Assembly (NCBI GenBank): GCA_900556965.1 | Contig: USQV01000087.1 | Location: forward strand, 1-5,256 | DNA from: an uncultured Clostridium sp. | GTDB taxonomy: Bacteria > Bacillota_A > Clostridia > Lachnospirales > Lachnospiraceae | Reading direction: 5' to 3' | DNA length: 5,256 nucleotides | In this document: positions 1 through 2,300 of the stretch, one piece after another | How the letters are laid out: each line of letters begins with the position of its first letter | Position numbering within the stretch: position 1 is the first letter of the stretch | The notes under the pieces: generated by a model | What the model was told of the DNA's origin: nothing | Database searches by the model: none | Seen by the model: only the letters and a program-made list of their open reading frames with translations | Program-made: the position numbers and the translations under genes

Positions 1-2300
1 CTCATCCGTGCATCGGAAAGCTATCCGCCGGAGAAACTTATTTTCTTATAGAAGAAGAAGCACCGGAGGGTTATCTGGTATCTCCTGCCACGTTGTTTAC
101 GATATCGAAGGACGGGAGCCACGTTATAGAGATCGCCAAAGGATCAGGAAAGATCATTATGGATACGGAGGAAAGCACCGGAAAGCTGAAAACGTTGTCT
201 GTTTTATGTCGCTCCGTCACAGGCGGACGGTTTGTTCTTAAAAACAGGGAACAGGTCATTTCTGCCGGGGAGATGCAAGGTGTGATCGAGATTCCGGATC
301 AGATCCCGGAGGGTGAGAGCCTGACGGTCAGCCAGTGGGTTACTTTTTCTGACGGATCGGAAAAGGCAATAAAAAATGAAAGCTTTCGTGTATACAGAAA
401 AGCCGGAGTCTGTCGGATAAATGTAAAAGCTCCGGTGAAAACAGAGTATCTTCTTTCGGATAAAAACGGAAGAAGCATCGCATTATGGGACGGACAGGAG
501 AATGAAAGAAAGCGGATAGAAGGTACCCTTTGGACGGAGGGAAGCTACAGACTGGAGGAGCGGCTCGTATTTGATGATGGGAGCAGGATCCCAGTGGAAA
601 GAACAGACCTTGGAATTGGAAACAGAAAAGCTGTCGATCATCTGGATATGAAGGATCGCAAGACGGAGGTGAGGATCAGAAAGACAGATAGGGAGAACGG
701 AAAATGGGTTCCGGGTGCAAAGCTTTCGATTAAAGACAGGAATGGAAAGACAATTGCATCATGGAATTCCGGTGAAGATGAGTATCTTCTTTCCGGCATC
801 TTAAAGCCGGGAGAAGAATATCGACTTGTGGAGGATCAGGCCCCGGAGGGATATTGGAAAGAGGAAGATATTCTATTCACGGTTTCAGAGGATGGCAGGA
901 TAGATCTGATCCGGATGGAGGACAGAAAAAAGGAAACAGAGCCTCCGAAGGAACCGGAACCGCCAACAAAGCCGGATGTGCCGGACAGACCAAAGCCGCC
1001 GAAAGAGCCGGAAAAACCGGATTACCCCGGAGATTCTAAGGATCCTCATCCCCCGGTGGAAACGCCGGATGGCCCGGGCCCGGGAAACCAGCCGGAGCTT
1101 CCTACAGAACCAATGAAGCCGGAAAAGCGTCCGGGAGTTATTACTGCAAAATATGCCCCCTCCACAGGAGGCGCGGGATATGCAGATCTGAGAAATCCGG
1201 GTAAAATAAGAGGTAAAACCGGTATTTATGTGCCCAAAACCGGAGACAGCCGAAATCCGCTTTTATATATCGGCGGAATGGTGGCTTTTATCATAGCAGC
1301 CGCAGTGATCCTTACACTTTCGAGGAAGAAGACCGCAGATAAAACGAAGCGAAGGTTTAATATCTTCCTTTTCACCGCCTTTTTGGTAATGGCAGGCTTC
1401 CAAAATATAAATGCGTGGGCTGAGGAAATGTCCGATCCAAGGGAAAACGGACGAAATGCAAAGATCTATGAAAGCCCTGTATTTGTCGGGGAAAGGAAAG
1501 ATCTGATCCCCGCAGACGTTATCAAGGAGGATGGAAAACAATACCGGCTGGTGTCGATGGAGGAAAAGGACGCCGTCAGAGAAAAAGAAATCACGTATGC
1601 GTCAGCCGACATCCCATACTTATTGGAAGGCAGCCAGAAGCCGCCGGATACTGCTTTGATCACACTAAAGGATGAGTATGCCCAAAGTGAATATGAGCGG
1701 GAGGTTCCCTTGCTTAAGGTCACGGAAAAAGATGTTTTCTGGTCGGATGACTTTCATTTTCCGTTAACGGTAACCGGCTATGATGCCGATTCCTTTCGGA
1801 TCGGAGAAACAGAGATACCGGCCGAGGCAGATATGATACGGTACGAGGATGCCTTTTTAGAATATCTGGGGCTTTCTGCCGACTGTTATCAGATCAACAA
1901 GATCGAATGGAGTGGGGAGAGCTATGAAAAGGATGGAGAAAAATGCCGGGATGGAGAGGCAAAGGGAAAAAAGCTCGTCAGAAGCGTGTCTGTAAAATAC
2001 GGAGGTCAGGTAGAAGCTCCAAGGCTTGAAGGCAAACAGTATGTGGCACTTTATGAGGAGATCTCAGGGGCAGATATGGATACAGAGGAAACAGAAACAA
2101 CAGTTTCGGAAGAAACAGAGGCATCAGCAGGATCGCCGATCGATGCCGAAGCTTTACAGAAAATTTCTTTTACAGAAAGAGTTTTATCATGGATCCGGGA
2201 ATACCGGACGGTAATAGCGGTCAGCATTTTCTTTCTTCTGTTTCTTCTTTCGGCACTGCTTCTCTTTTTTCGCATCGGAAAAAAAGGTAAGTATAAATGA
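1..2300 (+). CDS. Cna-B/SpaA-domain surface adhesin or pilin-like protein, fused to a second secreted membrane-anchored module (5' end outside window)
   Basis: Likely a cell-surface adhesin or pilin-like protein. The frame is open from the left edge (first full codon at 3, about 765 residues visible), so the TTG at 93 is internal and the true start lies upstream. Counting the codon at 3 as residue 1, I see: the end of a Cna-B domain (about 1-50, with YFLIEEEAPEGY), two degenerate Cna-B-like units (about 55-220), a canonical Cna-B domain (about 222-310), a Pro/Glu/Lys-rich stalk (311-378), VPKTGD (410-415), a membrane helix (420-440), a basic loop, a second hydrophobic segment shaped like a signal peptide (452-473, ending AWA), an unrecognised ectodomain (474-about 690), a Thr/Glu-rich tether and a final membrane helix (736-756) followed by a basic tail. 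Basic residues flank the helices on the predicted cytoplasmic side each time. Cna-B domains and sortase anchoring are known family traits. The role of the second half is unknown. A lost stop codon or an assembly error between two genes is the main alternative to a genuine fusion. Confidence 0.85.
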   Translation, partial: HPCIGKLSAGETYFLIEEEAPEGYLVSPATLFTISKDGSHVIEIAKGSGKIIMDTEESTGKLKTLSVLCRSVTGGRFVLKNREQVISAGEMQGVIEIPDQIPEGESLTVSQWVTFSDGSEKAIKNESFRVYRKAGVCRINVKAPVKTEYLLSDKNGRSIALWDGQENERKRIEGTLWTEGSYRLEERLVFDDGSRIPVERTDLGIGNRKAVDHLDMKDRKTEVRIRKTDRENGKWVPGAKLSIKDRNGKTIASWNSGEDEYLLSGILKPGEEYRLVEDQAPEGYWKEEDILFTVSEDGRIDLIRMEDRKKETEPPKEPEPPTKPDVPDRPKPPKEPEKPDYPGDSKDPHPPVETPDGPGPGNQPELPTEPMKPEKRPGVITAKYAPSTGGAGYADLRNPGKIRGKTGIYVPKTGDSRNPLLYIGGMVAFIIAAAVILTLSRKKTADKTKRRFNIFLFTAFLVMAGFQNINAWAEEMSDPRENGRNAKIYESPVFVGERKDLIPADVIKEDGKQYRLVSMEEKDAVREKEITYASADIPYLLEGSQKPPDTALITLKDEYAQSEYEREVPLLKVTEKDVFWSDDFHFPLTVTGYDADSFRIGETEIPAEADMIRYEDAFLEYLGLSADCYQINKIEWSGESYEKDGEKCRDGEAKGKKLVRSVSVKYGGQVEAPRLEGKQYVALYEEISGADMDTEETETTVSEETEASAGSPIDAEALQKISFTERVLSWIREYRTVIAVSIFFLLFLLSALLLFFRIGKKGKYK
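3..932 (+). repeat. Tandem Cna-B (SpaA-like) domain array within the adhesin
   Basis: Four related protein units follow one another. Unit 1 (3 to about 150) is only the end of a domain, with catalytic-type Glu 17 in the Y-x-L-x-E-x-x-AP-x-GY motif. Unit 2 (about 174-407) keeps only the FSDGSEK-type hairpin. Unit 3 (408-662) has DKNGRSIALW, YRLEE and a closing strand HLDMKDRK. Unit 4 (666-932) is complete: Lys 227 in IRKTD, Glu 277 in YRLVEDQAPEGY and Asp 307 in IRMEDRKK. Units 3 and 4 share the pattern D-K/R-NG-x-x-IA-x-W ... Y-R-L-x-E. The Lys/Glu/Asp set matches the intramolecular Lys-Asp isopeptide bond known from Cna-B2 domains. That the bond forms here is inferred. The units are diverged at DNA level, so this is a protein-domain repeat. 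Confidence 0.7.
1230..1331 (+). other. Sortase sorting signal (VPKTGD, membrane helix, basic tail) internal to the adhesin
   Basis: VPKTGD at 1230-1247 is an LPXTG-like motif. It is followed after a short spacer by a hydrophobic helix (about 1260-1319) and then Arg-Lys-Lys. This is the complete three-part cell-wall sorting signal, and a Pro-rich stalk precedes it as expected. It normally forms the extreme C-terminus, but here more than 320 further residues follow in frame. By family knowledge, sortase would cut between Thr and Gly and attach the upstream adhesin to peptidoglycan or to a pilus subunit. No sortase gene is inside the window. Confidence 0.75.
1332..1421 (+). other. Internal signal-peptide-like segment with predicted signal peptidase I site
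   Basis: A basic n-region (KTADKTKRR) leads into a hydrophobic core (1356 to about 1400) and a polar c-region ending in Ala-Trp-Ala at 1413-1421, followed by Glu-Glu. This is the A-x-A pattern cut by type I signal peptidase. No ATG, GTG or TTG codon with a convincing ribosome binding site lies just before it. The nearest in-frame ATG (1278) falls within the preceding membrane helix. The segment therefore seems to be translated only as part of the long protein. It would act as a re-entry helix, and possibly as a cleavage point freeing the second ectodomain from the sortase-anchored half. Confidence 0.6.

Follow-up and report, generated by a model that had tools for sequence, protein, structure and literature searches.

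A single frame in the window (the whole stretch of 5,256 nucleotides analysed here) runs through a sortase sorting signal into an internal signal peptide and a second ectodomain. It probably encodes a surface polyprotein that would be resolved by sortase and signal peptidase. The fused frame recurs in relatives, the order of its signals is kept there, and the fused state has more than one origin, as judged from trees of the second half.

The frame lies on the + strand from 3 to 2297, with a stop at 2298-2300. It comprises 765 codons and is open at its 5' end, where the window begins. The junction is free of stops, as had been claimed. Also the order of the parts and the residue numbers given in the original prediction (Thr 413, Glu 474) are exact: VPKTGD occupies residues 410-415 and AWA 471-473, followed by E474. 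The features are:

3..2297, + strand: fused coding frame; a homologous fused frame is found in P0038 (1278 aa).
666..923, + strand: SpaA/prealbumin-like domain of the adhesin half, the best of two stretches (PF17802, residues 222-307).
1230..1247, + strand: internal sortase motif VPKTGD (sequence; TIGR01167, residues 411-443).
1269..1313, + strand: helix 1, the hydrophobic part of the sorting signal (hydropathy scan, core 423-437).
1314..1355, + strand: basic loop TLSRKKTADKTKRR, net charge +6, which serves the sorting signal as its charged tail and the signal peptide as its n-region.
1356..1400, + strand: helix 2, h-region of the internal signal peptide (hydropathy scan, core 452-466).
1413..1421, + strand: AWA, predicted signal peptidase I site before Glu474 (sequence; [AVS]xA here in 16 of 18 fused proteins).
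1422..2147, + strand: module, a predicted all-beta ectodomain followed by an acidic linker (AlphaFold; relatives).
2226..2270, + strand: helix 3, the predicted C-terminal membrane anchor (AlphaFold and hydropathy scan, core 742-756).

The helices and signals of the window were called by a hydropathy scan and regular expressions, not by a dedicated topology or signal-peptide program. The adhesin half matches PF17802 with an E value of 3.6e-19 (for the whole protein), and a proline-rich stem connects the SpaA domains with VPKTGD. The elements of an LPXTG-type sorting signal, i.e., motif, hydrophobic helix and positive charges, are present as VPKTGD, helix 1 and RKK. TIGR01167 (LPXTG anchor) scores 19.2 bits, above its cut-off of 15.9; PF00746 stays at 17.0, below its cut-off of 20. 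What is unusual is the position, since about 320 further residues follow in frame behind the helix and its charges. The same holds for the signal peptide. By hydropathy and regular expression it has a KTKRR n-region, the hydrophobic stretch FNIFLFTAFLVMAGF and AWA, and it is internal in the window. In the 14 separate module genes that lie beside a sorting-signal gene (see below), a signal peptide is found near the N-terminus.

Downstream of the fused frame lies an spmB-like gene (PF07670, 27.7 bits, below the cut-off of 29.6). It is followed by a FabT-like MarR regulator (NF050133, below its cut-off) and a diphosphate-dependent phosphofructokinase (NF010675, above its cut-off). Part of a Na+/H+ antiporter (PF03553) is encoded on the opposite strand, also downstream.

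The charges had been said to fit a hairpin, and their pattern indeed suggests a chain that is threaded out-in-out-in: the loop is basic, the module ectodomain has a net charge of -27, and the tail behind helix 3, which extends to 2297, one of +5. A SpaA-type adhesin with its own sorting signal would thus be co-translated with a membrane-tethered partner, the module. Sortase would cut VPKT|G and thereby transfer the adhesin to the cell wall. A cut after AWA, by signal peptidase I, would free the N-terminus of the module, which would remain tethered by its C-terminal helix. A discarded linker would be formed by helix 1, loop and helix 2, and the end products would be the same as those of the split gene pair in relatives. 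We infer both cleavages, the topology and the cooperation of adhesin and module. As a reading, the bacterial polyprotein of the original prediction gains support: the charge pattern and the split homologues agree with two processed products. That the two are made in equal amounts is plausible. Coupled synthesis is not special to the fusion, though, because the separate genes of relatives mostly overlap. Sortase genes were present in all 16 module-bearing genomes tested, which do not include the window's own.

The closest relatives were sought with residues 385-765, among candidates of 421-1339 aa (8000 scored), a range in which full-length fused giants could not appear. Two proteins were found. 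P0038 (1278 aa, on another contig, from a cluster of 8 sequences) is 96% identical over residues 385-765 and has the identical junction. Its differences from the window are scattered along the alignment, for which reason we take it for another strain. P0039 (848 aa, on a 33.5 kb contig, 40% identity) has LPKTGD, helix, KKKKKNRD, helix, SFA and module in one chain. A third relative, P0001 (24.6 kb contig), has a module 95% identical to that of the window, recorded as a separate protein of 303 aa. Its recorded start is a Met inside helix 2, and it has SYA in place of AWA. This strain may not be fused, or its frame may be broken upstream; if the recorded start is true, the protein would be devoid of a normal signal peptide. 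A search with the adhesin half (candidates of 260-828 aa, 7995 scored) revealed no close relative terminated by a stop, only 14 more distant proteins with at most 45% identity over part of the length.

The original prediction had proposed to compare the gene in related genomes. Both states exist there, separate genes as well as in-frame fusions that keep a sorting signal and, in most cases, an AxA-type site. The comparison comprises 49 loci: all places better than 1e-10 in two family draws and the order draw, G003, L007 to L009 and the window; 22 weaker places of the order draw and the second family draw and all new places of the class draw, including G940 (4.8e-12), are not part of it. A TGD-type sorting signal precedes the module in the same frame at 16 of the 49, namely the window, L007, L008 and L082 to L094. 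Without the window, 15 loci remain, which stem from 13 genomes or records, G123 and G216 contributing two each; L007 and L008 are counted as records of their own and may coincide with G genomes. Fused frames reach up to 5275 codons (L083). The adhesins of L093 and L094 contain a thioester domain (PF08341). Behind three of the fused frames a small ORF with CPYCGR and RPAEYV was seen (L087:14058-14513, L088:4506-4958 and L089:13378-13839), which is possibly part of a mobile element.

One further locus, L097 (G005; L097:7374-9845, + strand), is fused without a hairpin: SpaA domains and module form one chain, with neither sorting signal nor helices between them, and with no hairpin in between the ectodomains there would stay joined. 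Its place (the same as L005) is the genomic place of the window, spmB-, MarR- and phosphofructokinase-like genes following in both.

At 14 loci the module has a gene of its own next to a sorting-signal gene, which means that the parts of the presumed polyprotein exist in relatives as adjacent separate genes. The sorting signals of some of these neighbours are degenerate, e.g., RAGD in L096 and KLGD in L118. In 13 of the 14 pairs a candidate start of the module overlaps the upstream stop; the overlap at a candidate start is 11 bases in eight (L012, L095, L096, L098, L110, L111, L124, L125), and in these AGGAGG is often found directly in front. AGGAGG stands just before a candidate module start also in eight of the 14, and in L002, L003 and L012 it is located inside the codons for the basic tail of the adhesin. 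The overlapping pairs look translationally coupled. In the remaining 18 loci no sorting-signal neighbour was seen in the stretch read; among these, hardly any sequence is available upstream of L104 and L106, which may thus be of either state, and L105 is identical to L123. L112, L009, L103 and L119 are examples of such module genes. Since the module is also found in this setting, it may have other partners or function in trans.

The order of signals can be compared in 18 fused proteins, i.e., the 16 loci plus P0038 and P0039, which are partly related rows and not 18 independent events. By hydropathy scan, all 18 have a TGD, TGE or TGY motif, helix 1, a basic loop and helix 2. The loop is 4 to 58 residues long, with a net charge of +4 to +13. 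Helix 3 is present in 17, the frame of L084 ending before it. The proline of xPxTG is found in 14 of the motifs; it is absent in L082, L083, L084 and L092. Within 18 residues around the helix end, [AVS]xA occurs at helix 2 in 16 of 18, at helix 1 in 4 of 18 and at helix 3 in 3 of 17 proteins. When the flanks of helix 2 were shuffled, a mean of 9.5 contained it, and 16 was reached in none of 2000 trials. The two proteins that miss it after helix 2, L086 and L092, have TFA and GYA there. The test is a weak one, because only 7 of the 14 signal peptides of the adjacent separate genes pass it.

How the two states are related was addressed with module trees, in which long branches make exact counts of changes unsure. 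In a tree of 88 rows obtained by a quick method, the fused state needs 10 changes, four of them forced by starred branches. In a careful tree of 34 of these rows, the window, P0038 and P0001 group with P0003 (100/99) and P0039 groups with P0009 (99/100), P0003 and P0009 being separate according to their records. Forcing window, P0038 and P0039 into one clade is rejected (AU p 0.00013, in a comparison without P0001). So is a single clade of all 18 fused rows (AU p 3.4e-5) in a quick tree of 48 rows, which drops L104, L106, L123 and 37 protein-only rows. Split and fused states have therefore interchanged, and the trees indicate that the fused state is of more than one origin. In view of these trees, the fusion in the window looks like a secondary join of an overlapping gene pair. 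Given this interchange of the two forms, and with both signals retained in the fusions, cleavage to the same two products as from split genes would be the simplest account.

The chief rival to the polyprotein reading is that the two halves stay joined. The chain might remain uncut, as a three-helix membrane protein holding both ectodomains, or be cut by sortase alone, which would yield a wall adhesin and a module with a two-helix stub. An internal signal peptide need not be cleaved, L097 demonstrates that adhesin and module can exist as one chain, and L086 and L092 lack a strict [AVS]xA. In L097, however, the motif and both helices are missing together, and 16 of 18 proteins retain an AxA-type site behind helix 2, well more than at the other helices, while the loop in front of it varies from 4 to 58 residues. 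We consider this rival rather unlikely. Much less probable still is translation of the module from an internal start, in addition to or instead of the fused chain, with the continuous frame being incidental. The original prediction had stated that no new start codon intervenes. This is correct for 1308-1382, about the place where the separate genes of relatives start, but not for the surroundings: in-frame ATG, GTG or TTG codons occur at 1230, 1278, 1281, 1305, 1383 and 1389 (ATG at 1278 and 1389, GTG at 1281 and 1305, TTG at 1383). A product begun at GTG 1305 would in principle still have a signal peptide, made up of the basic loop and helix 2, and the recorded start of P0001 corresponds to 1389. 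Against such a start, none of the candidates from 1278 to 1389 has an AGGAGG-like site in the preceding 20 bases, and a protein begun at 1383 or 1389 would start inside helix 2; the codons from 1278 to 1305 fall within helix 1.

Loss of a stop codon, or a sequencing error that joined two neighbouring genes, had been named as the main alternative; in its wider form it includes assembly errors and takes the stop loss to be recent and functionless. A small indel would suffice for this, as relatives have two genes that mostly overlap in different frames, and P0001 is recorded as separate. The junction, however, is the same in P0038 at 96% identity and in a cluster of 8 sequences, and fusions are seen also in P0039 and in 15 further loci. 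Sequencing error and chance stop loss are rejected on the strength of P0038 and these 15 loci from 13 genomes or records, and we hardly give this alternative any credence. Some observations do speak against the polyprotein reading itself: the four of 18 motifs without proline, the separate record of P0001, the hairpin-free chain of L097 at the same genomic place, the PF00746 score below cut-off, the low pass rate of the [AVS]xA test among the adjacent separate genes and GTG 1305.

Three of the 16 fused loci (L082, L083 and L084) have a sortase in them or next to them. The most complex case is L082 (G123; L082:3428-15661, - strand), a single frame of 4078 codons that includes a class B-like sortase. 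Its chain consists of an N-terminal signal-like helix, SpaA domains, LIRTGD, two helices, AYA, the module with its helix, a further helix and the sortase. The sortase domain is recognised by PF04203 (E 2e-9) and by the NCBIfam class B model with an E value of 7.6e-37, but with 126.9 bits, below the cut-off of 153.75. In L084 (G209; L084:10785-11777, + strand), a frame resembling the module tail and its helix continues into a class B-like sortase; it overlaps the end of the module, the main part of which is in another frame that ends nearby. In L083 the sortase gene lies 1.2 kb downstream. It is preceded by an ORF of 246 aa (L083:17049-17789) that begins where the fused frame ends and has no Pfam match at E <= 0.1. 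Tentatively, one may go further and suppose that Lachnospiraceae generally use sortase-resolved surface polyproteins and have switched repeatedly between split and fused genes, and that in at least one lineage, L082, the chain is self-resolving by its own class B-like sortase; we regard this as possible rather than probable. If true, substrate, partner and enzyme would arrive together in L082, formally like in a viral polyprotein.

The module itself represents an unnamed family. When searched alone, within a range of 174-553 aa in which fused proteins could not appear, it had 37 relatives, between 214 and 368 aa in length. Neither Pfam nor NCBIfam has a model that matches window:1350-2297 at E <= 1. 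In the AlphaFold prediction (mean pLDDT 85), residues 13-213 of 292 form an all-beta ectodomain, followed by an acidic linker of low confidence and a helix at the C-terminus. Among the structures compared there was no convincing solved match, which does not make the fold a new one. Most of the places where the module was found are in the family to which the Lachnospiraceae loci belong. With a threshold of E <= 0.001, the module was detected in 35 of 397 genomes of the first family draw and, with a broader profile that includes weak C-terminal matches, in 49 of 387 of the second; the two draws share most genomes, and their counts are not independent. The corresponding numbers are 18 of 392 in the order draw, 14 of 391 in the class draw, where three have E values below 1e-10, and 1 of 388 in the phylum draw, the latter being the centre itself. 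The genus draws comprised two genomes and one genome only. Nine module records are named: six Lachnospiraceae and one each of Clostridium sp., Enterocloster hominis and Bacterium 1XD42-76. In viral contigs, 18 stretches matched a pattern, and none of them encoded a relative.

With known LPXTG-type sortase substrates that carry SpaA domains (PF17802, TIGR01167), the window's protein shares these domains, the proline-rich stem, xPxTGD, the helix and the positive charges. Some relatives carry a thioester domain (PF08341), as seen in L093 and L094. In contrast to them, the sorting signal is internal here, and the frame continues from it into a signal peptide and a second protein. A bacterial precedent for one chain giving two proteins is FbcH of Bradyrhizobium, a precursor of cytochrome b and c1 that is cut at an internal signal sequence. 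The separation at an internal signal peptide is alike, but FbcH involves no sortase, the proteins are unrelated, and they belong to a respiratory complex of a Gram-negative. In laboratory constructs that place a reporter behind a staphylococcal sorting signal, the chain was reportedly cut at LPXTG and the reporter stayed in the cytoplasm. There, too, the sorting signal was not C-terminal; these constructs differ in being artificial and in the cytoplasmic location of the reporter. Viral polyproteins are cut by the host signal peptidase (PMC7601889). They likewise are membrane-threaded chains cut at internal signal peptides, but they are viral, depend on a eukaryotic signal peptidase and are not anchored to a wall. 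In the accessible parts of the literature searched, which included few subscription papers, we found no combination of an internal sorting signal with a signal peptide, no natural chain of this kind with a sortase substrate and no cleavage experiment on such chains.

Sorting signals are assumed to end a protein, and annotation relies on that. A recurrent mid-chain sortase site, back to back with a signal peptidase site, would add polyproteins to the surface biology of Gram-positive bacteria. Such chains would offer a natural test of how sortase and signal peptidase handle internal sites, and they would link the very large adhesins found in gut bacteria with a membrane module so far uncharacterised.
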